Shown: one piece after another, positions 20,224-51,654 of the stretch
Layout of the letters: the number at the start of each line of letters is the position of its first letter
How positions within the stretch are numbered: position 1 is the first letter of the stretch
Origin: Candidatus Gastranaerophilales bacterium
Lineage (GTDB): Bacteria; Cyanobacteriota; Vampirovibrionia; Gastranaerophilales; Gastranaerophilaceae
Assembly (NCBI GenBank): GCA_947587615.1
Contig: CANPYC010000014.1
Coordinates: 1 to 54,006 of the forward strand
Length of the DNA: 54,006 nt
Reading direction: 5' to 3'
The notes under the pieces: generated by a model
The model's input: only the letters and a program-made list of their open reading frames with translations
What the model was told of the DNA's origin: nothing
Database searches by the model: none
Made by a program: the position numbers and the translations under genes

Positions 20224-21060
20224 CTAACCATCTAACAATCCCATTGCGGTTTGTAATAAATCTTTGTAACTTGACATAATCTTACCCGATAGGTCAAGCT
20301 GCGTTTTAGCTTCTTGCCAATATACGGCATTGGCTTTAAAATCAATATTGGAAAGCTCGATAAGACCGCTTCTTACTTCGCCTCTACCGATTACGGGTTT
20401 ACCAGAGTATGCTGTTTCAACATATTGCCCCTGTTTAAATTCAAAAAGCTCTTGAGGATTGTGAAAATTCATTAAAGCGAGTTTAAATAAGGGAGTGCAG
20501 TCTTTTCCGTTATTTGCTTTTCCATACAGGATACCATCTCCTTTAATTTCAAATTCATCATATTTTCCTAAGTATTTTCCGTTATCAGGGTCAATCCAGA
20601 GTTTAATTTCCGTTGTAGGAACGGCAAGCGCACCGCCTTGAGCGATTGAATCTTCAAAAGCTTCATCGGATAACGACTTTGTGCCCGACATTATCTCGCC
20701 TTTATCGTTTAAGATATATCCTTGTACTTTAGAGCCGTCAGAGGCTCTATAGACTCCTTCTGCGTCAAATTTAAATTCGCCCAAGCGAGTATAAGAAACT
20801 CCGCCTTCATCGTTTCTTAAAACAAAGTAGCCGTTACCTTCCAAAAAAACATTCTCAGGTGAAGTCCCGGGGATTGCTTTACCTTGTCCCATATTTTTTA
20901 AAATTCTGTCGGGTACGGCTGAGTCAAGATATGTTTTAAACGTTACCTGATTTTCTCTATACCCCGGAGTATACAGGTTTACCATGTTTTCTGATAGAGC
21001 ATTCATCCAATGAACGGTTGATTTTTGCGTATTCATTGCATTTATAAACATATCTCTCAT
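20224..21060 (-). CDS. Flagellar hook/basal-body rod family protein (FlgE/FlgF/FlgG type)
   Basis: 278 residues. The N-terminal rod-family helix ends in N-L-Y-T-P-G-Y-R-E-N, matching the N-x-x-T-x-G-F/Y consensus. The FlgE/F/G core reads L-E-G-N-G-Y-F-V-L followed by Y-T-R-L-G-E-F-K-F-D and G-V-Y-R-A-S-D-G. A C-terminal helix (I-E-L-S-N-I-D-F-K-A to L-L-Q-T-A-M-G-L-L) closes the D0 domain. The length is near FlgG/FlgF and far short of most hook proteins, but a compact FlgE is possible. The neighbouring FliK-like and FliJ genes would favour a hook role. Exported by the flagellar system, so no signal peptide. Confidence 0.85.
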   Translation of the reverse strand: MRDMFINAMNTQKSTVHWMNALSENMVNLYTPGYRENQVTFKTYLDSAVPDRILKNMGQGKAIPGTSPENVFLEGNGYFVLRNDEGGVSYTRLGEFKFDAEGVYRASDGSKVQGYILNDKGEIMSGTKSLSDEAFEDSIAQGGALAVPTTEIKLWIDPDNGKYLGKYDEFEIKGDGILYGKANNGKDCTPLFKLALMNFHNPQELFEFKQGQYVETAYSGKPVIGRGEVRSGLIELSNIDFKANAVYWQEAKTQLDLSGKIMSSYKDLLQTAMGLLDG

Positions 21061-21065
21061 AAAAA

Positions 21066-21704
21066 TTACCTCTTTTTATTTTCTTTTTGGTTTTTATTGT
21101 TTTTATTTTCATCTTTATATTTTGAATAGCCTAAAGATGAATAGTTTATGTTTTCATCATCAAATCTCTGTTTTAAGCTTGGAATATTATTTTTTAAATA
21201 ACTCTCGACTTCTGAGGTGCCCGGGATAAAATGTGCTTGAATTTTTCCTTCTTTATCAAGTTTTAATATAACCGTTATGTTATTTTCAAAATCAAGCCTT
21301 ATCGGTTTTTTAGACTCCAGTGAAGATTGAAGCATACTTAAAAGCGGACTTGTTGCATTAATTTTTTTATTATTAAAATCGGAAATATTAAGTTTATCAT
21401 CTTCAATTGTATAGTTAATTAAATTTTGTTGATTTAGGAGATTTATAAAAAATATTGCGTCATTTACCCCGATTTTATCAGCGTTAATATCAAACTCAGC
21501 ACCGAAATCAAGCTCTAAAAATTTATCGTTTATGGCTGTTAGAGTGTCTTTTTCTTCTTTTTGAAAAAAATTTTCGATAATTTCTTGAAGCCTTTTTGAT
21601 ACGTTGTAAAAGTCGTTTTGCTTAGGCGAGATATATTGATTTTGCTCTATTTGAGCGGTTTTTTTATATTCATTATTTGGTATTTGATTGGTTATTTGCT
21701 GCAT
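21066..21704 (-). CDS. fliK: FliK-like flagellar hook-length control protein
   Basis: 212 residues, short for FliK (usually over 350). The N-terminal part is Asn/Gln-rich. The last third follows the FliK C-domain pattern: P-I-R-L-D-F-E-N-N-I-T-V-I-L-K-L, then G-K-I-Q-A-H-F-I-P-G and Y-L-K-N-N-I-P-S-L-K-Q-R-F. That domain talks to FlhB to switch export from hook to filament. It sits between fliJ (touching at 21704) and the hook/rod gene, which supports the call. A short ruler region would predict a short hook or a different measuring mechanism. Confidence 0.7.
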   Translation of the reverse strand: MQQITNQIPNNEYKKTAQIEQNQYISPKQNDFYNVSKRLQEIIENFFQKEEKDTLTAINDKFLELDFGAEFDINADKIGVNDAIFFINLLNQQNLINYTIEDDKLNISDFNNKKINATSPLLSMLQSSLESKKPIRLDFENNITVILKLDKEGKIQAHFIPGTSEVESYLKNNIPSLKQRFDDENINYSSLGYSKYKDENKNNKNQKENKKR

Positions 21705-22189
21705 TAATAGTCCCGATTTTCTTTTTCAATTTGTTCTAACAGCTCTTGTTCTTCTTTTTCGTTTCTCTGTCTTATAAAATATTTTTGAGAGCCGATTTCA
21801 TTAAGTTCTTTAAGCTCAAGCGCTTTTTGTTCTCTAACATATTCTTCTTTTTGGTTTTCTTTGTGTTTTTCTAATACATTTACTTCCTGTTCTTTGACTT
21901 TTAGAATTTCTTTTTCTTTATTTAGGTTGTCAATTGCTTCTTGCTTTTGTTGTTTGAGTTTTTCGTCCTCTTCCCAAAGATGTTTAATGAAATTATCATA
22001 CTGTTCATACATCATAGGGTTAGCACTTCTCATTTGGTTTGTTAAGTCTTTAATTTGCTGTTGGTTTTGGATTATTAAAAGTTCAATTCTATCTACTTCT
22101 TCTTGAGCTTTTATAACAACTTGAAGCTGTTCTTCTTTTTTTCTTATTCTTATTTCTAAGATTTTTTGAAGTCTATATCTAAAAGGCAT
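21704..22189 (-). CDS. fliJ: Flagellar export chaperone FliJ
   Basis: 161 residues, almost entirely a charged coiled coil. The start P-F-R-Y-R-L-Q-K-I-L-E-I-R matches the F-x-F-R-L-Q-x-V-L-x-x-R opening of FliJ proteins, and length and composition fit. FliJ links the ATPase FliI to FlhA and escorts export cargo in the cytoplasm. First gene of the minus-strand run fliJ-fliK-hook/rod-exported protein, divergent from 22325 with a 135-bp shared upstream region. No fliI is present in the window. Confidence 0.8.
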   Translation of the reverse strand: MPFRYRLQKILEIRIRKKEEQLQVVIKAQEEVDRIELLIIQNQQQIKDLTNQMRSANPMMYEQYDNFIKHLWEEDEKLKQQKQEAIDNLNKEKEILKVKEQEVNVLEKHKENQKEEYVREQKALELKELNEIGSQKYFIRQRNEKEEQELLEQIEKENRDY

Positions 22190-23251: not shown

Positions 23252-23279
23252 ATAGTAATTAAACAAATTGGAGGTAGTA

Positions 23280-23897
23280 ATGGCTAAACCGGCTGACAAT
23301 AAAGACAATAATCCGAATAAAAAACCTGCTCTTGAATTAAGTCCGAACACAATGATTTTACTTAATAACATTGTAGTTATTGTAGTGGTTGTGGTTGCGC
23401 TTATTGCCGCAGTTTTATTTTTAAATACATCCATGAAAAAAGAAATTGCAAAAGTAGCCCCCGAATCGGAACAAAGTCAAGATGAAGAAGATGAAGAAAA
23501 ACAAGAAGGTATAATGCTTGATTTGGGCGATTTTGTGCTAAATTTGGCTGATGTAACCTCAAGAAGATATTTAAAAGTAGGAGTTGCTCTTGAAGTATCA
23601 AAAACGGAAGAAGAAGTCCTTGCTTCTGAGGCAGCGCCCTCATCCGGAGGACACGGCGGACACGGTGAAGCTGCCCCTGTTGATATTAATGCTAAAATTG
23701 CAAACGACATGCAAAGATATAAACCCGCTATGAGAGATGCTATTATTTCTGTTTTATCAAACAAAACTTCCGACGAATTATCAACAAATGTCGGAAAAGA
23801 AATTGCAAAAGAAGAAATCTTAGAGAACATAAACGCAATTTTTGAAGGTCAAAGAGAGGTAATGAGAGTAAGCTTCGGACAATTTATAATCCAATAA
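23280..23897 (+). CDS. fliL: Flagellar basal-body-associated protein FliL
   Basis: The start is set at the ATG at 23280, with GGAGG at 23270-23274; an in-frame TTG at 23268 lies before the ribosome site and is rejected. 205 residues: cytoplasmic tail, one membrane helix (about 25-50, V/I/A-rich), acidic linker, then the FliL domain with D-L-G-D-F-V-L-N-L-A, R-Y-L-K-V-G-V-A-L-E and the C-terminal V-S-F-G-Q-F-I-I-Q. A His/Gly insert (G-G-H-G-G-H-G) sits mid-domain. FliL surrounds the stator units and supports torque. Next gene is fliN, 13 bp on. Confidence 0.88.
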   Translation: MAKPADNKDNNPNKKPALELSPNTMILLNNIVVIVVVVVALIAAVLFLNTSMKKEIAKVAPESEQSQDEEDEEKQEGIMLDLGDFVLNLADVTSRRYLKVGVALEVSKTEEEVLASEAAPSSGGHGGHGEAAPVDINAKIANDMQRYKPAMRDAIISVLSNKTSDELSTNVGKEIAKEEILENINAIFEGQREVMRVSFGQFIIQ

Positions 23898-23910
23898 GCT
23901 TTAAGGTTTG

Positions 23911-24825
23911 ATGATGGAAGAAAATAACAACGAAAATATTGATAAAATCAAAGAACAATCTTCAATGTTTAATTCTGATGAATCATTGAATAACCCTGAC
24001 GAACTAAATTCAATGTTTGATGATAAACAGAATTTAAACGCTGCTTCAATGTTTGACAGCTCTCAAGACGCTGATGATTCTTTAAATAACTCAGCAAATA
24101 ATTCCTCAATGTTTGATGAAAATAATGCGGATTTTAATTCTGAAAACGAAAATCAAGGTTCAATGTTTGATGAAAATAATTCTCAACCGCCTCAAGATTT
24201 AAACAGCCAAGACCAAAGCACTCAAGAGCTTGAAGATATTTCAAGCCCGCCTGATGAAAAGTTGAATAACAGCTTTTTTGAAAATAATACCGACAATATT
24301 GATAGCAGTATCGATAATAACCTTGACAATAGCTTTGACAACCCTGCTGATAATGATATTAATAATAAAGCGCAAAATGATATCAATGTTAATGTTATAG
24401 ATGATACAGCCAATGACATTGTTAATTCTTCTGATAATTATGAGAAAGATGAAACCCCTATTGCTTGCGAGAGTTCAGGCTCCGAGCTTTTAAATCATGT
24501 TTGTTCAAAAGAACTTGTTACGGTTCGTCCTGTTAAATTTCAAGAATTTGCCGAAACTCCCCCTGTTCGCACAATTAAAAAAAATCTTGATATTATGCAG
24601 GATATTTCAATGCATGTAAGTGTTGAATTGGGAAGGACAAAGTCTTCAATAAAAGAAGTTATGGAGATGGAAAAAGGGTCTGTAATTGAGCTTGATAAAA
24701 TTGCAGGTGAACAGGTTGAAATATATGTAAATGAAAAACTTGTGGCAAAAGGCGAAGTTATTGTAATTGAGGATAAATTTGGTGTAAGAGTTACTTCAAC
24801 AAATGTTGCAAAACCTCTCGTATAG
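23911..24825 (+). CDS. fliN: Flagellar switch protein FliN/FliY with long Asn/Asp-rich N-terminus and SMFD repeats
   Basis: About 304 residues from the ATG at 23911. The last 80 residues are a SpoA (FliN C-ring) domain: V-S-V-E-L-G-R-T-K-S-S-I-K-E-V, G-S-V-I-E-L-D-K and V-N-E-K-L-V-A-K-G-E-V-I-V-I. The first 170 residues are low-complexity Asn/Asp/Ser with five copies of a Ser-Met-Phe-Asp/Asn motif spaced roughly 15-25 residues apart. Another conserved-looking stretch (about 180-215, with two Cys) lies between. The SMFD repeats could be short docking motifs for a partner such as CheY-like proteins; that is inference. It follows fliL directly. Confidence 0.85.
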   Translation: MMEENNNENIDKIKEQSSMFNSDESLNNPDELNSMFDDKQNLNAASMFDSSQDADDSLNNSANNSSMFDENNADFNSENENQGSMFDENNSQPPQDLNSQDQSTQELEDISSPPDEKLNNSFFENNTDNIDSSIDNNLDNSFDNPADNDINNKAQNDINVNVIDDTANDIVNSSDNYEKDETPIACESSGSELLNHVCSKELVTVRPVKFQEFAETPPVRTIKKNLDIMQDISMHVSVELGRTKSSIKEVMEMEKGSVIELDKIAGEQVEIYVNEKLVAKGEVIVIEDKFGVRVTSTNVAKPLV

Positions 24826-35564: not shown

Positions 35565-37016
35565 TTATATTTTTCCTAAAATCGTAAGCTTGTATTCAAG
35601 AGCTATTTCTTCAAAGCTGACAACGGGAATATCCATAAAAAGTTGAGAAACAAGTATAAAAATTATTTGCCTGTATTGATGATTTGTGATTATAATTGCG
35701 TTTTGTTCAATTATATCTTTTTTAAGCTCTTTTAAAACTTTTCTTAATTTTGAAAATTTGGACAGGTCTATTCTTACGTTTGAGTCTGTTTCGTTCGTTT
35801 GTTTTTCAAGTAAACTCAAAGTATCTTCATCAATTTCATAGGCAAAAATTTCTTTGTCTTTGTTTGCAACCGAGTTTGAAATCTGCCTTGCCATAGAAAG
35901 CCTTAAACGCTCTAATAAGTCCGACTTGTTGGGGTCGTCTGAAAAATCATTCAGTTTTTCAAAAATATAGACAATATCTTTAACCCCAACCCTCTCTCTA
36001 ATCAGTTGAGTAAGGATATATTTAAGCTCTGAAAGGCTTAAAAAATCTCCAACGGTTGAATCGGTTAAAAATGAATTTTGAGTGTTTAAATAATCAATAT
36101 ATCTGTTTAAGTCGTTATAATCAAAGATTTCATCAACATGAGAAATTGAGTAATATTTTAAATAATTTGCAATATATTCGGCAGCTTCAAGTCCTTCCAC
36201 CCAAAAATTTGCGCAATCTTCTTTTTTAACCCATATTATTTTTCTTTTTGTCAAAGGGTCTTTTTCTTTAATTGAATGTTTTGGTGCTTTATCAACATTC
36301 AATTCATCCTCATAAAACATTATATAGTTAGGATAAGCCTTTGAAGAAGCAACACTTACCCCATGGATATTTATTGTAAATTCGTATTCATCAAGCGAAG
36401 AATTTTCAATGAATTGAACCTTAGGAATAATATAACCCAACTCCTGTGTTAAATCCTGTCTTGTTTTAACAACTTGAGAAAGAAGGTTTTTCTCGTTTGA
36501 AAAATCACAAACGCTGTAACATTCGCTCGACAAGCTTATTGATAATTTTTCTTCGCCTAAAAACTTCGCCATCTTAGACGGCGCTAAGACATCTTTTAAA
36601 TCTCTTTTTAAGTCATTAAGCTCATCTATATCTTTTTTAATTTCATCGTTTAAAAGTTCTCGCTCGGTGTCTTTAGAGCTTTCTAAAAATTTTTTAACAC
36701 GTTCGATTTTTTCTTTTTTATCTTTAATTTTTTTTTGAAGATTTAAACAAAGCTCGTAAGGCTCTTCTTTAGAATAAAGCATACGCTCAACAGTGCTTCT
36801 GAAGTTGATAATATCATCATCAACTTCATCGGGTGCGTTTTCAACTTCTCTTACAAAAATACAATTATAAACTATTTTTGAATTTTGCTCTGCTTCATAT
36901 ATTGAATACAACTCCCAGCCCGTAGTTGACATCGCATTAAGTGTATTTTCAAGCAACGCTGTTTCATCCGTCGGGATTGATTTTATAGAAAATTCTTGTC
37001 TGAATTGTTTTGCCAT
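35565..37016 (-). CDS. Soluble FlhA C-domain paralogue with N-terminal DUF4177-like domain and coiled coil
   Basis: 483 residues, no membrane segment. Residues 1-57 have a DUF4177-like pattern (ending T-G-W-E-L-Y-S-I-Y and I-F-V-R-E), 85-143 a charged coiled coil, and 150-483 align by eye with the cytoplasmic domain of the FlhA encoded at 49567-51654. Matching blocks: T-Q-E-L-G-Y-I-I-P-K versus T-D-D-L-G-Y-I-I-P-N; L-T-Q-L-I-R-E-R-V-G-V-K-D-I-V-Y-I-F-E-K versus F-V-N-L-I-R-E-K-V-S-I-K-D-V-I-F-I-F-E-R; and L-L-E-R-L-R-L-S-M-A-R-Q-I versus I-L-S-E-R-L-R-A-A-L-G-R-Q-I. FlhA-C is the docking ring for export chaperones, so a free copy might hold, compete for or relay cargo. Known examples of this architecture are unknown to me. 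Confidence 0.85.
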   Translation of the reverse strand: MAKQFRQEFSIKSIPTDETALLENTLNAMSTTGWELYSIYEAEQNSKIVYNCIFVREVENAPDEVDDDIINFRSTVERMLYSKEEPYELCLNLQKKIKDKKEKIERVKKFLESSKDTERELLNDEIKKDIDELNDLKRDLKDVLAPSKMAKFLGEEKLSISLSSECYSVCDFSNEKNLLSQVVKTRQDLTQELGYIIPKVQFIENSSLDEYEFTINIHGVSVASSKAYPNYIMFYEDELNVDKAPKHSIKEKDPLTKRKIIWVKKEDCANFWVEGLEAAEYIANYLKYYSISHVDEIFDYNDLNRYIDYLNTQNSFLTDSTVGDFLSLSELKYILTQLIRERVGVKDIVYIFEKLNDFSDDPNKSDLLERLRLSMARQISNSVANKDKEIFAYEIDEDTLSLLEKQTNETDSNVRIDLSKFSKLRKVLKELKKDIIEQNAIIITNHQYRQIIFILVSQLFMDIPVVSFEEIALEYKLTILGKI

Positions 37017-43953: not shown

Positions 43954-44760
43954 CTAACTAAATACTTTAAATGAACTTTCAATATTACCTTCAATAACCT
44001 TAGAAACGCTGTCCATTTCTGTTTGGATTGCATTTCTTTCCGTTTCCAGTTCGTCAAGTTTCATCTCTAACATTTTATCAACTTTTTGAATTTTAGTCTG
44101 AACTCTTTGATATTCGGCTTCTGCCGCTGCGTCGTCGCTTTTATCGTATTCTTCCGTAATTGCGCCGCCGCCGATTGTTTCCCATCCTTCGGTATTAAAT
44201 TTTTTAGTTACGTTAACACCGTCAAATTCATCATTATATGTTGCAAAATAATATTCACCGCTTTTAATTGCGTCTTGGAAGCTATCAGCGTCATCAAGCC
44301 CTTCAACAATCATAAAATCGCTTTCGCTGAACATCGGGGTTTGTGAAATTTCAGTCGTAGCTTCTTCTTCGCTGCCTTCCTCGGGAGTTATTGTTTTTGT
44401 TACGGTTCTGTTATTTGCCTGAATTATTGCATCTCTATCTTTTTCATTTGCTACAATAATCTTATTTCCTGAAGAAGAAACAAGAAATAATTTTTGAGAT
44501 GAAGAGGAGAGCCCTTCTTGCTGTTGATTCATGAAGTTTTTATAGTTGTTATAGGTAATATCAACTGTTTGCTTTTCTGCTCCCATGAAGCTAAAGGTTA
44601 ATTTGCGGTTGGTTGTCTGGTTTTGATAAAGCGTTGTAGCTTGATCAAGCTGATTTGACAACTGTAAACGCTGAAAATTTATTTGTTGAGCTTCGTATTC
44701 AACGTTGCTTTTCCTAGCTGTTAATTGCAAAAACCTTGCTTGGCTTGCAGAAAGCCCCAT
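43954..44760 (-). CDS. Lineage-type coiled-coil protein (M-G-L-S-A-S-Q-A-R), possibly a surface or filament component
   Basis: 268 residues. Both ends are amphipathic helices: N-terminal S-A-S-Q-A-R-F-L-Q-L-T-A-R-K to about residue 50, C-terminal R-N-A-I-Q-T-E-M-D-S-V-S-K-V-I to the end. The middle (about 55-215) is polar and acidic with repeated Gly, Asp and Ser. Helical termini flanking a variable middle recall flagellin, hook and hook-associated proteins. I have an impression of similar proteins in non-flagellated Gastranaerophilales, so a flagellar role is not established. AAGGAGA precedes the ATG. Adjacent to the flagellar operon, divergent from the transglycosylase. Confidence 0.6.
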   Translation of the reverse strand: MGLSASQARFLQLTARKSNVEYEAQQINFQRLQLSNQLDQATTLYQNQTTNRKLTFSFMGAEKQTVDITYNNYKNFMNQQQEGLSSSSQKLFLVSSSGNKIIVANEKDRDAIIQANNRTVTKTITPEEGSEEEATTEISQTPMFSESDFMIVEGLDDADSFQDAIKSGEYYFATYNDEFDGVNVTKKFNTEGWETIGGGAITEEYDKSDDAAAEAEYQRVQTKIQKVDKMLEMKLDELETERNAIQTEMDSVSKVIEGNIESSFKVFS

Positions 44761-45038
44761 GGCTCATTCTCCTTAAACTTTATTGTCTAACAATATATAT
44801 ATCGGCAAAATCAAGAAATACTTTAAATAAGTGAGCAAAAAAATTAAATTTTTGTTACATTTTGTAATATAATATTTTTATAATATTTACTGGACTTTTT
44901 TAACAAAATCATTAAATTAAAACAGCAATTCAAATAAGAAAATTCATATTTCATACAGTTAAACCAAAAACAATTAATTAGCTCAAGAATACAGTTTTAG
45001 TGACGTTTGTTAATCTAAGGGGAAGATACAATTTAAAT

Positions 45039-45713
45039 ATGTTTAGTGCGCAAATCCAAAATTATATAGATTCATCAAGCCAAACCCAAGCTTATAATCG
45101 GATAAATGAACTAAATAACTATATCAATTCTTTTTATCCGGCAAAGCAAACTTCAAAGGAAGATAAATTATCCGCTTTTCAGGAAATCTTAGCCCAATCA
45201 AAAGCACAAACAAATTCAAACAGTGTTTTTAATCTTGATTTACCTCCGAATATTAAAGAAATTAAACCTCTTCCTTTCGGTTCTCTGTCGAAAATTAAAT
45301 TTGGCAATAAAACGGATAATTCCCCCGTTTCTAAAACCAAAGCGGCAATTTTAGACTATGTAAAAGAAGCAAGCGAAAGATACGGAGTGGATGAAAAATT
45401 AATCAAAGCTTTAATAAAACAGGAATCAGGGTTTAATCCTAACGCCGTATCAAGCGTCGGCGCCAAAGGGCTTATGCAGTTAATGCCAAAAACAGCACGG
45501 GCTCTTGGTGTTCAAGATGTATTTAACCCGAGAGAAAATATAGATGGCGGGGTGAGATATCTAAAGCAAATGCTTGATAAATATAACGGAAATACAATTC
45601 TTGCTTTAGCTGCATATAATGCAGGTCCGGGGGCGGTTGACAAGTATGACGGAATACCTCCTTATAAGGAAACTCAAAACTACGTAAAATCAATTTTAGC
45701 TCAATATCTGTAA
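45039..45713 (+). CDS. Lytic transglycosylase (SLT domain), flagellar-type
   Basis: About 224 residues from the ATG at 45039; a GTG at 45000 is also in frame but lacks a ribosome site. AAGGGGA precedes the chosen ATG at a rather long distance. The C-terminal SLT domain (about 115-220) has I-K-Q-E-S-G-F with the catalytic Glu, [10 protein letters not shown], and [10 protein letters not shown]. It cleaves peptidoglycan, probably to let the rod through, as FlgJ does in enterics. No signal peptide, so it may leave via the flagellar exporter. It is 18 bp upstream of fliE in the same direction. Confidence 0.85.
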
Positions 45714-45731: not shown

Positions 45732-46040
45732 ATGGATAAGATTAATCAAATAAATATTTTTAATAAATCAAATATTCCTCAAACGACGGGCGGTATCTCA
45801 TTTTCTGATGACACTGTTCAACAAAAAAGCTTTAAGGATGTCGTTGTTGATATGATGTCCGAATTGAATGAAGTAACAAATAAACCTCAAAAATTAGCAC
45901 TTGACGCTATGCAAGGTAAAGCCGATATCCATGACGTTATGAGTGCAATTGCTCAAAGTGAACTAACCGTTCAAGCAGCTACAACGGTGACGGGTAAAAT
46001 CCTTCAAACGTATGAAAAAATCATGCAAATTCAGATTTAA
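45732..46040 (+). CDS. fliE: Flagellar hook-basal body protein FliE
   Basis: 102 residues, normal length. The FliE pattern is clear: F-K-D-V-V, A-M-Q-G-K-A-D-I-H-D-V-M-S-A-I-A-Q-S-E-L and a helix ending Y-E-K-I-M-Q-I-Q-I. FliE connects MS ring to rod. AAAGGAAT precedes the ATG. flgB and flgC, often upstream, are absent from the window. Confidence 0.93.
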   Translation: MDKINQINIFNKSNIPQTTGGISFSDDTVQQKSFKDVVVDMMSELNEVTNKPQKLALDAMQGKADIHDVMSAIAQSELTVQAATTVTGKILQTYEKIMQIQI

Positions 46041-46085: not shown

Positions 46086-47804
46086 ATGGAAAACTTTGAC
46101 CTAAAAAAATTAACGGAAAATAAACCGCTTCTATACACAATAATAGGTTGTATAGGAGCTGTTGTTATAATGTTTTCCATAATGATAGCGGTAATTATAA
46201 ATACTTCAAACTCATCAGGCAATGCTTCGCAGGATAAAAAAATTAAAGCTGCCGAGCGTGTAATAAAAAACGACCCCGTAACCTTGTTTACAACGGATAA
46301 CGCAGGTAAAGCACTTGAAGTTCAAGCACTTCTTGCAAGAGAACAAATAACTGCAACAAAAGTAGATAACGGTTCTAAAGTTAGTATTGTTTTAAAAGAA
46401 TATACAGCCGACCAAAGAGACAGAGCTCTTTTGACAATCGTTAAAAGCGGACTTTTAGATGAGCACACGGGTTTAGAAATATTTGATAAAGGCGATTTTA
46501 CATCAACAAAAGATGATAAAAAGATAAGGCTTGTAAGAGCAATTAACGGAGAATTAGCAAGACTTATAAGAAAAATTCCGCCGATTGAAAACGCTCAGGT
46601 ATTTATCTCAATCCCGGAGCAGACTTTCTTCTCGCAAGACCAAAAGCCGATAACGGCAACCGTTCAAATAACAATGCCATCGGGCGAGCGTTTGGATAAT
46701 ATGAAGGTAAAAGCAATATCTAATTTGCTTTTAGGTGCTGTTCACGGACTTGAATCGGATAATATTTCAATAACCGACACAAACGGAAATGTCTATAATT
46801 CAATCATAGGCGCTTCTGATGACGCAATAGCAAAAATTGAAGAAAACGATAAATACATGCAAACAAAAGTCAATGCTCAGCTTGATAAAATATTGGGTAA
46901 AGGTAACTATATTGCTACTGTTTCAACGTTTTTAACTCAATCACCAATTGAAAAATCAAGCATAGTATATGACCCTGATAAAAAAACATCAATATCGGAA
47001 CAGGAATTTTCGGAAAGTTTAGGAGATAATCATAACGACTCAACGTCATCAGGCATGAACCCCGTTAGCGTATATGTTCCCGACGGAGTTAAAGGAAGCG
47101 TACAGCAGGGAACTTCCTCTCAGGATAGAAAATACAATAGAACCGCAACAGAAACTCAATACGGAATATCTAAAACGCAAATAAACGAATATTTAGCAGC
47201 AGGAATAATTGAAGAAATATCAATAGCGGTATCAATTGAAGAAAGCGCTATTCCTTCAAGTATGAGCCTTTATGAGCTTAAAACATTAATTGCAAATGCC
47301 GCAAGTCCAAAGGTTTCACCCGATAATGTTTCAATTGCTTTTGTTGAATCAAACAGCCTTGTATTAGCTCCCGATAAGGAAAACGAGCTTCCGCAGGTTG
47401 AAGAATCAGGTAATCCCTGGTGGGTTGTGGGTGCTGTTCTTTTGTTGGGTCTTGTTATGGGATTATCTCATATCGGTAAAAAAGTTAAAACGGAAGCCAA
47501 AAAGCAAGAGCAAGAGCTTGAATACTTAAGACAAGTAACCGCAAATCAGGAACAACAGCTAAAAGATGTTACTCAACAGGCAACAAGTTTGATTGCCCAG
47601 CAGGAGAAAATGGCTCAAAATATGATTGAACAAAAAAATCAATATACACTCGCTCTTGAACAGGCAAAATCAATGGCGCAATCAAGGTCGAGCGTTCCTC
47701 GAGGAGATTTGTTTGACGCAATCAGCGAATTAGAATCGGATTTTAATTCAATTGACGAAAATGAAGCGATAGAAAAAATTAAAAACTGGATAGAAAGCGC
47801 ATAA
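46086..47804 (+). CDS. fliF: Flagellar MS-ring protein FliF
   Basis: 572 residues. Membrane helix near the N-terminus (about 15-40). The first ring-building motif region has L-F-T-T-D-N-A-G-K-A-L-E-V, followed by the FliF core I-N-G-E-L-A-R-L-I-R-K-I-P-P-I-E-N-A-Q-V-F-I-S-I-P-E. A second helix (about 440-460) and a cytoplasmic coiled-coil tail (Q-rich) to dock the C ring follow. It forms the base platform in the inner membrane. The next gene starts 8 bp after its stop. Confidence 0.94.
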   Translation: MENFDLKKLTENKPLLYTIIGCIGAVVIMFSIMIAVIINTSNSSGNASQDKKIKAAERVIKNDPVTLFTTDNAGKALEVQALLAREQITATKVDNGSKVSIVLKEYTADQRDRALLTIVKSGLLDEHTGLEIFDKGDFTSTKDDKKIRLVRAINGELARLIRKIPPIENAQVFISIPEQTFFSQDQKPITATVQITMPSGERLDNMKVKAISNLLLGAVHGLESDNISITDTNGNVYNSIIGASDDAIAKIEENDKYMQTKVNAQLDKILGKGNYIATVSTFLTQSPIEKSSIVYDPDKKTSISEQEFSESLGDNHNDSTSSGMNPVSVYVPDGVKGSVQQGTSSQDRKYNRTATETQYGISKTQINEYLAAGIIEEISIAVSIEESAIPSSMSLYELKTLIANAASPKVSPDNVSIAFVESNSLVLAPDKENELPQVEESGNPWWVVGAVLLLGLVMGLSHIGKKVKTEAKKQEQELEYLRQVTANQEQQLKDVTQQATSLIAQQEKMAQNMIEQKNQYTLALEQAKSMAQSRSSVPRGDLFDAISELESDFNSIDENEAIEKIKNWIESA

Positions 47805-47812
47805 AAGGAAAT

Positions 47813-48766
47813 ATGGCACAAGGAGACTTAAAAAGTTTTGATTATGAAGCGTTCGCAAAAGACTTGTCCGAACAAGCCAGTCAGGTTGTGCCCTCTGATA
47901 TTGAGAAAGACGATAAAAAATTTGTAATAGAGCTTATATATCGTTTTTGTCAAATGGCGGGAGAAGCTCTTGTCAAAGAAGAAAATTCAAAATTAAACGC
48001 TCAAGAAGCAAGTCTTGTTACTCAATTTATCGGCGAATGGATTTTCCATAAATCAATTGATATTATAAGAGCAAATATTGATATGCAGCACCGTGAGGGC
48101 ATTCTTCAAAAAGTTGCTTTCACTGTTTTTGATATTGCAAAAAAAGCTGTTGAAAAAGGTATACCGCAGGAACAATTAATAAATCTTGTTGAAGCACAGG
48201 TAAAAAAGAGCTTCACAAAAGCTCTTGAGGACTTGGAAGCAAGAGGAATTTTATCAAAACAGGTTACGCAAAACGCACTCAGCCAGTCAAACATTGATAC
48301 AATGGCGATTGAACAGGTTGAAGAAGAAACAAGAGAAGAAATTCTTAACATGAGTGACGCTAAAGTTATCAAGCTCGCTTCTCTTGCCGTTTTAATCAAA
48401 AACTTTCCGCATGATAAATTGAAAAACGTTTTACAAAACTTTGATAAACCCGAGAGGGATGTTTTAATAAAATACTTAAAAATGCCTGATTTAGAAGAGA
48501 AATTGGATATGAAAGCAACGATTAAATGTTTTGAAGAAATTAAAAACACGCTGCCTGAGGCGGTTGTCATAAGTTACGAAAAAGCATTCAAGAAAATGTA
48601 TAAAATTGTAAAAAATTCGGATAAAAATAAAATTTTGAATATTATAGAGAATGAAAGACCTGCGGTTATGGAATATGTATTATCCTGCTACGGCAGTAAA
48701 AGAAAAAAAATTCCGGCTTATATTGCAGATGTAATATCTAAATATTTAGAAGAAAAAGTTTCATGA
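47813..48766 (+). CDS. Divergent FliG-position protein
   Basis: 317 residues, all helical, no membrane segment. By position between fliF and fliH it should be FliG (usual length about 330-340). I do not see FliG landmarks such as the E-H-P-Q-x-I-A middle-domain motif or the charged M-F-x-F-E-D / R-x-I-Q C-terminal motif. The last 130 residues include V-L-I-K-N-F-P-H-D-K-L-K-N-V-L-Q-N-F and I-E-N-E-R-P-A-V-M-E-Y-V, which could be a strongly changed armadillo-like FliG domain. Start ATG at 47813, stop overlaps fliH by 4 bp. Confidence 0.5.
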   Translation: MAQGDLKSFDYEAFAKDLSEQASQVVPSDIEKDDKKFVIELIYRFCQMAGEALVKEENSKLNAQEASLVTQFIGEWIFHKSIDIIRANIDMQHREGILQKVAFTVFDIAKKAVEKGIPQEQLINLVEAQVKKSFTKALEDLEARGILSKQVTQNALSQSNIDTMAIEQVEEETREEILNMSDAKVIKLASLAVLIKNFPHDKLKNVLQNFDKPERDVLIKYLKMPDLEEKLDMKATIKCFEEIKNTLPEAVVISYEKAFKKMYKIVKNSDKNKILNIIENERPAVMEYVLSCYGSKRKKIPAYIADVISKYLEEKVS

Positions 48767-49566
48767 TAATAAGAAAAAAAACAGATAAATCAAAAGAAGG
48801 AACATCCTCTCAAAATATAATAAAACCAAACTCTAAAAGAAATATTATAAAAAAAGAGGATTTAAATTTTAACAAAAAAGAGCAAATAAAAGAAATTGAC
48901 CCTAAGCCCTTAAAACAGGAAACAAAAGAAAACCAAACGCAGTTAGAAGATTTTGAAAAAATAGATATTTCAAACATAGATTTTAAAGAAAGAATTGAAA
49001 GAAGAAAAGGGGAAAGAAGAAGGGGCTATCGAAGAATTGACGAAAGGTCTTTAGTTTCAAGAGCACAACAGGAAGCCCATACAATTAAAGAGCTTGCGGC
49101 AAGAGAAGGCTATAAAACGGGGCTTTTGAATGCTCAAGGGCAAATAGAAGATATAAAGTCTGCAATTGCAGAATTTTTATCTTCAAAAGATAAAATGTAT
49201 GAAGAGTTTTATCCACATATTATGGAAATTTCTTTTGAAATTGCAAAAAAAATTATTAAAAAAGAAGTGGAATTATCTGATGAAGTATTGAAAAATGTTA
49301 TTATGTCTGTTTTGGATGAGATAAGCTCTGATACTCAAAAGATTGAAATTAAAGTAAATTCAACCGATTACGAATTTGCAAGCGCTTCAATACCCGAGTT
49401 TATGGAACATAAACAAATTCAAGCAAGAATAATCGTTTCAAAAGATGATTCAATTGAAAAAGGAAGCGCAATTGTAATAGCAAATAACGGAGTAATTGAC
49501 GCCGATTTTAAAACACAGCTTGCAATTCTGCAAAATGCCTTCGGTATCTATACGGGAGGGCTTTAG
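48763..49566 (+). CDS. fliH: Flagellar assembly protein FliH
   Basis: 267 residues. A charged disordered N-terminus leads to R-A-Q-Q-E-A-H-T-I-K-E-L-A-A-R-E-G-Y-K-T-G, the usual FliH heptad-and-glycine start, then a C-terminal domain resembling the V-ATPase E subunit. FliH normally holds the ATPase FliI, yet no fliI follows: flhA starts directly after the stop. ATGA overlap with the FliG-position gene. Confidence 0.88.
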   Translation: MIIRKKTDKSKEGTSSQNIIKPNSKRNIIKKEDLNFNKKEQIKEIDPKPLKQETKENQTQLEDFEKIDISNIDFKERIERRKGERRRGYRRIDERSLVSRAQQEAHTIKELAAREGYKTGLLNAQGQIEDIKSAIAEFLSSKDKMYEEFYPHIMEISFEIAKKIIKKEVELSDEVLKNVIMSVLDEISSDTQKIEIKVNSTDYEFASASIPEFMEHKQIQARIIVSKDDSIEKGSAIVIANNGVIDADFKTQLAILQNAFGIYTGGL

Positions 49567-51654
49567 GTGGCAGCAGCGGGTAAACAAGGCGGAAATCCTG
49601 CTTCGGAAATTCTTCTGGCAGGGTTTGTTATAGTTTTAATATTAATCCTACTTTTGGAAATGCCTTCTTGGGTTATTAACTTTTCAATAAGCTTCAATAT
49701 TACTCTTGGTATTGTCTTATTGATGATATCTTTGTATGTTAACAAACCCCTTGAACTTGCCGCTTTTCCATCCATTCTTCTTATCGGAACGGTGTTTAGG
49801 CTTGTACTATCCATTGCTTCAACAAGGCTGATTTTATCAAAAGGAGACGCAGGAGAGGTTGTCGAAGCTTTTGGAAATTTCGTTACGGGCGGAAATATGG
49901 TCGTTGGCGGTGTTATCTTTTTAATTATCACAATTGTTCAATTTATGGTAATTACAAAGGGAGCTGAGCGTATTGCGGAAGTTTCCGCACGTTTTGCGCT
50001 TGATGCCATGCCCGGTAAACAAATGACAATTGACGCCGATTTTAACGCAGGTTTAATTTCTCCTGATGAAGCGGTAAGAAGAAGAGAAGAACTTCAAAGA
50101 GAATCAAGCTTGTATGGTTCAATGGATGGTGCAATGAAGTTTGTAAAAGGTGATACAATAGCAGGTATTATTATCACTTTAATTAATATCATAGGCGGTT
50201 TAATTATCGGTATTATATTAAACGGAATGAGTCCCGAGGACGCTGTTTCAAAATATACCATCTTAACAATAGGTGACGGTTTATCTTCTCAAGTTCCTTC
50301 TCTTTTAATGGCTATTTCATCAGGTATAGTGATGACCCGTGCAACAGGGGGCGGTGTTGCTTTGGGTTCCGATTTGGCGGTTCAAATTTTATCAAAACCG
50401 ACAAGCTTATTTTTGGCTTCAGGGTTCTTGATTTTAATTGCACTGTCTTCTCCTGTTACGGGTTTACCCTGGTTTCCTTTTGTTATATTTTCTGCCGTTT
50501 TAATTATGGGAGCACTCTCTGTTTTGGTTAATCAGGATGTTCAACAGCAATTAGGGCAATTGGACGCCGTTAAACAAAATATGCAGGATTTGGTTAACCC
50601 TAATAAAATGTATGAAAGATTAGGGGTTGATGTTTTATCTCTGCAAGTTGGAGCAGGATTGCTTGTTATAGCAGACCCCGAACAAGACGGGCAATTATTG
50701 GCTAAGATTGCAGCCCTGAGGCAAAGAGTAACGGATGATCTCGGCTATATTATTCCAAACATCAGAATTATGGACTCATCCGCAATTGGAGATAATGAAT
50801 ATCTGATATCAATTCGAGGTAACCCCGTTGCAACGGGAACGGTATACCCGGGTAAACTTATGGTAATAGCCGATCAATATGAGGCATTGGGTAAAAAACT
50901 ACCTGAAAATGCAATAGTTTCGGTTGAGCCGACGTTTCAATCGCAGGCTTATTGGCTTAATCCGCAACATATCGGAAAAAATGATAAAATTCAAGCGGTT
51001 GATGCCGTTGATGTTATTGTTACGCACTTACAAGAGTGCGTTAGAAAATATGTTGATGAGGTAATGACAAAAACGGATGTCTTAAAGCTTATGGAGCTTG
51101 TTAAATCCCAAGACCCGACGCTTGTTAATGACCTTGTACCGACAATTATTTCAACATCCGATTTAAGAAAGATTTTTGTTAATTTAATAAGAGAAAAAGT
51201 TTCAATTAAAGACGTAATCTTTATTTTTGAAAGATTATGCGATTATGCAAGATTTTCAAAAGAACCCGATATTTTATCCGAAAGATTAAGAGCGGCGCTT
51301 GGAAGGCAAATTTGTCTATCTAACGCAAATAAAGAAAAAGTTTTATATGCTCTAACTTTATCTGCCGAATGGGAAAAAACACTTGACGATTCCTGCCAAA
51401 GAACTGAACTTGGTACAATGTTTTTATTAAACCCAATGCAAGTTCAAGAGCTTATTGAGTCAACCGCAACAACTCTTATGCGCTCTCAAAGCGCAATCGG
51501 TGTTCAGCCTGTAATACTTTGTTCTCCAAGAATAAGGCTGCCGCTTTATCAAATGCTCGAGCGCCATATACCTACAATTGTCGTTATATCATACTCCGAA
51601 TTGATAACAGATATTCGAGTAGAGGCGATTGATACAATCGGAGAAGGATATTAG
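49567..51654 (+). CDS. flhA: Flagellar export gate protein FlhA
   Basis: 695 residues, GTG start directly after the fliH stop. About eight membrane helices (20-320) with the FHIPEP signature R-F-A-L-D-A-M-P-G-K-Q-M-T-I-D-A-D and G-L-I-S-P-D-E-A. The cytoplasmic domain (350-695) holds L-G-Y-I-I-P-N-I-R, L-I-R-E-K-V-S-I-K-D and L-G-R-Q-I. It is the proton-driven export gate whose C-domain ring receives chaperone-bound cargo. A soluble paralogue of that domain is encoded at 35565-37016. Last gene of the operon. Confidence 0.97.
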   Translation: MAAAGKQGGNPASEILLAGFVIVLILILLLEMPSWVINFSISFNITLGIVLLMISLYVNKPLELAAFPSILLIGTVFRLVLSIASTRLILSKGDAGEVVEAFGNFVTGGNMVVGGVIFLIITIVQFMVITKGAERIAEVSARFALDAMPGKQMTIDADFNAGLISPDEAVRRREELQRESSLYGSMDGAMKFVKGDTIAGIIITLINIIGGLIIGIILNGMSPEDAVSKYTILTIGDGLSSQVPSLLMAISSGIVMTRATGGGVALGSDLAVQILSKPTSLFLASGFLILIALSSPVTGLPWFPFVIFSAVLIMGALSVLVNQDVQQQLGQLDAVKQNMQDLVNPNKMYERLGVDVLSLQVGAGLLVIADPEQDGQLLAKIAALRQRVTDDLGYIIPNIRIMDSSAIGDNEYLISIRGNPVATGTVYPGKLMVIADQYEALGKKLPENAIVSVEPTFQSQAYWLNPQHIGKNDKIQAVDAVDVIVTHLQECVRKYVDEVMTKTDVLKLMELVKSQDPTLVNDLVPTIISTSDLRKIFVNLIREKVSIKDVIFIFERLCDYARFSKEPDILSERLRAALGRQICLSNANKEKVLYALTLSAEWEKTLDDSCQRTELGTMFLLNPMQVQELIESTATTLMRSQSAIGVQPVILCSPRIRLPLYQMLERHIPTIVVISYSELITDIRVEAIDTIGEGY

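Follow-up and report, generated by a model that had tools for sequence, protein, structure and literature searches.

A gene on the reverse strand of the window, a 54,006-nucleotide stretch of a Candidatus Gastranaerophilales genome, encodes a 483-residue protein with an ATG start (35565–37016). Sequence comparison and a structural model identify this protein as a complete FlhA cytoplasmic domain (FlhA_C) that lacks the membrane part. The gene is conserved across the order Ca. Gastranaerophilales, which consists of non-photosynthetic gut relatives of cyanobacteria, and the properties described below suggest that the gate-less FlhA_C is an accessory component of type III secretion that has so far gone unrecognised. 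FlhA and SctV have so far been treated as single gate-plus-ring proteins; a partial search of the literature gave no description of or precedent for an FlhA_C protein without the gate, in agreement with the initial annotation of this DNA.

Identity and predicted fold of the protein

The Pfam profile PF00771 (FHIPEP) matched residues 129–473 over profile positions 321–654 of 657 (E=1.3e-46), and the score of 159.9 bits against a curated cut-off of 29.1 placed the protein within the FHIPEP domain family. Because the match spans only positions 321–654, the protein corresponds to the cytoplasmic half of FlhA; the membrane gate of FlhA and SctV is absent and a DUF4177-like N-terminus is found instead. 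The TIGR01398 FlhA profile matched residues 139–483 with 148 bits (E=2.5e-43) and the hrcV/SctV profile gave 100 bits, values below the respective equivalog cut-offs of 772 and 692. Alignment by BLASTP with FlhA-B, the other FlhA encoded in the window, gave 29% identity (E=1e-45). The initial description of the gene as an FlhA_C paralogue with no membrane part was therefore upheld. The blocks that it had noted in common between residues 150–483 and the FlhA of the window do reflect homology, but this homology begins near residue 121, within the linker, and not at residue 150.

The best relative in the PDB by phmmer was the FlhA_C structure 3mix (E=4e-23; E=6e-50 when a profile of 37 orthologues was used). 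A monomer model calculated with AlphaFold2 had a mean pLDDT of 79, and its top Foldseek match was 6ch2, FlhA_C with FliT-FliD (E=6e-21, TM 0.83 by target), so that the structural check proposed earlier also returned a solved FlhA_C.

Organization of the N-terminal region and linker

Residues 1–62 (36831–37016, reverse strand) are predicted to form a DUF4177-like domain with a strand-helix-strand-strand arrangement, modelled with a pLDDT of 85. The matches to PF13783 were weak, being obtained for 24 of 27 orthologous N-termini with a best value of E=5.5e-5, and the window sequence itself gave E=0.029, below the curated cut-off. A fold search with this domain gave nothing better than E=0.014, with dodecin and KCTD5 among the best rows. 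The domain is followed by a predicted coiled-coil hairpin at residues 86–143 (36588–36761, reverse strand) composed of helices 86–113 and 116–143 in the AlphaFold2 secondary structure, consistent with the DUF4177-like domain and coiled coil originally described ahead of FlhA_C. The second helix of the hairpin aligns with the linker of FlhA-B in the BLASTP alignment.

Alignment of the free-standing copies with FlhA-B revealed a linker-arm motif, P-x-x-M, at residues 146–149 (36570–36581, reverse strand). M149 was placed at the position of Salmonella W354 by an ungapped count back from G368, with methionine standing for tryptophan. The four FlhA_C domains D1–D4 occupy residues 150–483 (35568–36569, reverse strand) and were assigned from the profile match, Foldseek and mapping on Salmonella FlhA; T256 is found in place of F459 of the chaperone dimple.

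Distribution, selection and genomic context

Among 191 genomes of the window's family, 184 carried the gene, a genome being scored as positive if its top match was well above the strength of an FlhA-B match. Six of the other seven genomes had a match of FlhA-B strength only and one (G031) had none. Sampling of 22 further genomes across six sister families of the order showed the gene in 21, and the named relatives are Ca. Gastranaerophilales, Galligastranaerophilus and Avigastranaerophilus. Of 21 same-genus pairs compared by NG86, seven had a pS below 0.68, and their dN/dS values of 0.10–0.16 are evidence of purifying selection on the gene sequence. The dS values are to be read as rough: one of the 21 pairs was saturated at synonymous sites (pS 0.76) and yielded no finite dS, and many more approached saturation.

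An assembly artefact or pseudogene was ruled out by the conserved full length and the dN/dS of about 0.1 in the non-saturated same-genus pairs, and a phage origin was rejected as no relatives were found among viral contigs. The lone match in the phage collection, an unverified 'Bacteriophage sp.' scaffold (MT835847.1, L195), is a full-length FlhA of 677 residues that groups with bacterial FlhA. One genome given as 99% complete (G045) contains the gate-less gene and a shorter FlhA_C paralogue, but no full-length FHIPEP match, which may reflect either an assembly gap or a real loss.

No fixed operon partner was found across 20 loci, and in most genomes the gene is unlinked from the operons of the second type III set (B set) described below. 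In the window it stands outside the type III operons, in line with the earlier reading of a single gene outside the flagellar operon. In two similar genomes (G196 and G201, loci L041 and L045) the gene is followed after 147 bp by a fliJ-fliK-flgD-flgE run, the genes of which were read by eye.

A second type III gene set

Three FHIPEP genes are present in the window's genome: canonical FlhA, which adjoins FlhB on another contig, FlhA-B and the gate-less protein. FlhA-B (49567–51654, forward strand; PF00771, 721 bits) is a divergent full-length FlhA and, according to the tree, the closest full-length paralogue of the gate-less protein. The initial annotation had correctly noted an FlhA in the window, but this is not the canonical flagellar protein. 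The genes that precede it on the forward strand encode a lytic transglycosylase upstream of fliE (45000–45713; PF01464, E=2e-35), a FliE-like protein (45732–46040; PF02049, E=1e-14), a FliF-like MS-ring protein (46086–47804; PF01514, E=4e-36), a 317-residue protein in the position of FliG between FliF and FliH (47813–48766; no Pfam match over threshold, same order in L180) and a FliH-like subunit (48763–49566; PF02108, E=4e-18). Genes assignable to either the B set or the flagellum encode FliN-like C-ring (23908–24825, forward strand; PF01052, E=9e-23) and FliL-like proteins (23268–23897, forward strand; PF03748, E=6e-22) and, on the reverse strand, FliJ-like (21704–22189; PF02050, E=7e-4, below cut-off), FliK-like (21066–21704; PF02120, E=5e-6, below cut-off) and FlgE/F/G-like axial proteins (20224–21060; PF22692, E=1e-9). 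In L180 the B set additionally comprises proteins resembling FlgB, FlgC and FlgF/G, as judged by eye. At a separate location from the FliE-to-FlhA-B genes there is a FliN-like/FliO/FliP/FliQ/FliR run, in which all but FliP were likewise identified by eye. Judged from its genes, the B set appears to encode a second type III export apparatus that is distinct from the flagellum.

Such an apparatus is indicated in each of the 42 family genomes surveyed. FlhA-B is present in 42/42, the gate-less gene in 37/42 and canonical FlhA in 17/42; FliP divides in the same way (FliP-B 42/42, the other class 17/42), flagellin occurs in 18/42 and FlhB was found also in flagellum-less genomes. The gate-less gene was identified in 16 of the 17 genomes with canonical FlhA and in 21 of the 25 without it, most of which also lack flagellin. 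A role as a flagellar partner, as implied by the initial annotation, was therefore rejected on the grounds of co-occurrence. The gate-less gene does occur with FlhA-B, although this says little, as FlhA-B is universal in the 42 genomes and the test is consequently low in power. Sampled genomes outside the order have FlhA-B without the gate-less protein, which is thus not a required part of the B apparatus. Occurrence in genomes devoid of flagellar and injectisome genes, named at the outset as grounds for abandoning the idea, was not seen: the gene was not found in the sampled genomes of a family of the same class (f8) that is without any FHIPEP protein.

Earlier papers reported that the set of flagellar genes is complete in some members of the group but only partial in other genomes, which was read as loss (PMC3787301, PMC4040986). 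These incomplete sets, taken within the order for a partial or decaying flagellum, may instead be the B set. A start-anchored N-terminus, MGLSASQAR, is common to the protein encoded at 43954–44760 (reverse strand) of the window and its relatives, comprising 3–11 otherwise different proteins per genome; it is possibly a candidate type III signal.

Descent and other gate-less FlhA_C proteins

In a tree of FlhA_C domains the free-standing proteins formed one clade (100/100), which grouped with FlhA-B and was split from canonical FlhA (100/100). The stem branch of this clade was 1.47 changes per site compared to 0.23 for FlhA-B. This tree traces the clade to a duplication within the FlhA-B lineage, accompanied by loss of the gate. 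In other classes of the phylum, gate-less FlhA_C proteins cluster with a second full-length FlhA from their respective lineages and are separated from the clade of the order (100/100), indicating that the gate was lost more than once.

These other gate-less proteins mostly lack D2 or the dimple aromatic. Among 16 further paralogues the segment 430–486 is reduced to 7–22 residues in 12, compared to 59 in FlhA-B, meaning that D2 is largely missing. D2 is present in L071, L086 and L087, but position 459 is occupied by T or L, and in L088 it is occupied by Y. Where the dimple could be aligned, the other-class proteins have a non-aromatic residue at 459, while L182 and L184 align poorly there. The latter are two related proteins from two genomes of another class in which an HTH_17 DNA-binding domain is fused to a gate-less FlhA_C (L182:3315-4556 and L184:2765-4018; E=1e-11 and 4e-13). 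Three other proteins (L082:4042-5823, L083:2633-4411 and L190:2222-4306) combine FlhA_C with an N-terminal part similar to the protein that occupies the FliG position in the B set (E=2e-10 for L083 and 5e-6 for L082 by BLASTP; L190 by eye), followed by hydrophobic stretches. In G241, outside the order, a 289-residue gate-less FlhA_C gene (L071:1998-2867) lies directly downstream of FlhA-B.

Residues conserved and replaced relative to FlhA

The cytoplasmic ring of FlhA and SctV is nonameric, and FlhA_C is a platform for export chaperones. In Salmonella the linker around W354 binds either D1/D3 or the dimple of the neighbouring subunit and controls chaperone docking (PMC8166844). The proline of the arm motif is conserved in 37/37 free-standing copies and the methionine in 34/37, and both are conserved in 21/21 FlhA-B sequences. 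R391 and W465 are also retained in 37/37 copies. The chaperone dimple formed by D456, F459 and T490 is not intact: D456 is present in 36/37 copies, F459 in 0/37, and T490 is replaced in most by charged or polar residues. The position of F459 is occupied by T, S, N, L or K, mostly T or S, whereas it is aromatic in FlhA-B (16/16, and 21/21 in a larger set) and canonical FlhA (6/6). G368 is replaced by serine in 35/37 copies. Identity to FlhA-B was highest for D3 (36%) and D1 (32%), followed by D4 (20%) and D2 (16%); the low value for D2 alone says little, because D2 is also the least conserved domain within FlhA-B (46%).

Proposed role and alternatives

We tentatively propose, by analogy with the Salmonella linker and at somewhat less than even probability, that the gate-less protein is an accessory subunit that docks on the FlhA-B ring, capping it or setting its choice of substrate. 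After duplication of FlhA-B the gate would have been lost and the DUF4177-like domain and hairpin gained. The P-x-x-M arm and the D1/D3 faces would engage a subunit of the FlhA-B ring in the manner of a neighbouring FlhA's linker, while its own dimple would have lost the ability to receive either a chaperone or an arm. Docking sites on the ring would be capped or occupied, setting the substrates taken by the gate, and the N-terminal domain and hairpin may carry a signal or a partner. The earlier suggestion that the protein joins or modulates the ring is plausible in this form, as D3 and the linker arm are among its best-kept parts, with the ring now tied to FlhA-B. Counting against the proposal are the sampled genomes outside the order that have FlhA-B but not this protein, the lack of linkage to the B operons in most genomes and the placement of the arm by an ungapped count with methionine for tryptophan. 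If correct, the proposal would represent modulation of the ring in trans and a naturally occurring case in which arm and acceptor functions are separated.

An accessory arm-donating regulator is favoured over a cytosolic sink or shuttle that binds the chaperone-cargo complexes of FlhA, as first suggested, because the dimple aromatic is lost in 37/37 copies and other gate-less FlhA_C proteins mostly lack the aromatic or D2. Although D456 and W465 are retained next to the dimple and FlhA_C is a known chaperone platform, the replacement of F459 by mostly T or S, the changes at T490 and the absence of D2 from several other paralogues make this improbable. Service to the canonical flagellum is highly improbable and is largely refuted by the flagellum-less genomes that carry the gene; the fliJ-fliK-flgD-flgE neighbours in G196 and G201 would favour it, but the protein is closer to FlhA-B than to canonical FlhA.

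The long stem branch, the loss of the G368 hinge of the GYXLI motif, the unlinked gene and the low D4 identity to FlhA-B would be expected of a protein that had left type III export and formed its own soluble ring or scaffold from a reused FlhA_C fold. This is rather unlikely given the vertical retention of the gene in an order in which FlhA-B, too, is found almost throughout, the conservation of the arm motif and D3, and the absence of the gene from those sampled genomes that lack FHIPEP proteins altogether. The protein might alternatively sense or regulate the state of export: its FlhA_C-like part would bind a free export component and the N-terminal domain relay the signal. This reading is indirectly supported by the HTH_17 fusions and by the FliG-like or helical N-terminal parts of other gate-less versions. 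The HTH fusions were however derived separately from a different FlhA, no signalling role for DUF4177 was found in the literature searched and no regulatory gene was consistently linked in the 20 loci, and a sensor is considered unlikely. A wider form of the docking proposal, which we regard as doubtful, is that gate-less FlhA_C recurs in the non-photosynthetic lineages of the phylum as a regulatory module of their second, non-flagellar type III systems. Such a module would dock through its arm without taking cargo, and its interchangeable N-terminal domains, a DNA-binding one among them, would serve to report or control the state of export.

Comparison with known systems

The protein resembles FlhA_C (Pfam FHIPEP, TIGR01398) in its fold, the order of D1–D4, the linker and residues R391, D456 and W465, and differs from FlhA in lacking the gate, in the replacement of F459 and G368, in the added DUF4177-like domain and hairpin and in scoring far under the equivalog cut-off. 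The cytoplasmic domains of the injectisome proteins SctV, CdsV and InvA share the fold (Foldseek TM 0.71–0.86 by target), but these proteins also have the gate and the profile score is lower than for FlhA (hrcV 100 compared to 148 bits). The nearest known idea is that of the FlhX/YlqH-type proteins, free-standing C-terminal domains of FlhB, in which the cytoplasmic domain of a gate protein is likewise encoded alone, although of FlhB and not FlhA. FlhX has been named as a flagellar secretion protein (PMC9321776). The HTH_17 and FliG-like fusions (L182, L184, L082, L083 and L190) are similar in combining a gate-less FlhA_C and degraded dimple with a new N-terminal domain, but are separate derivations or branches that are rarer or found in other classes, and L082, L083 and L190 differ from the protein of the order in their hydrophobic stretches.
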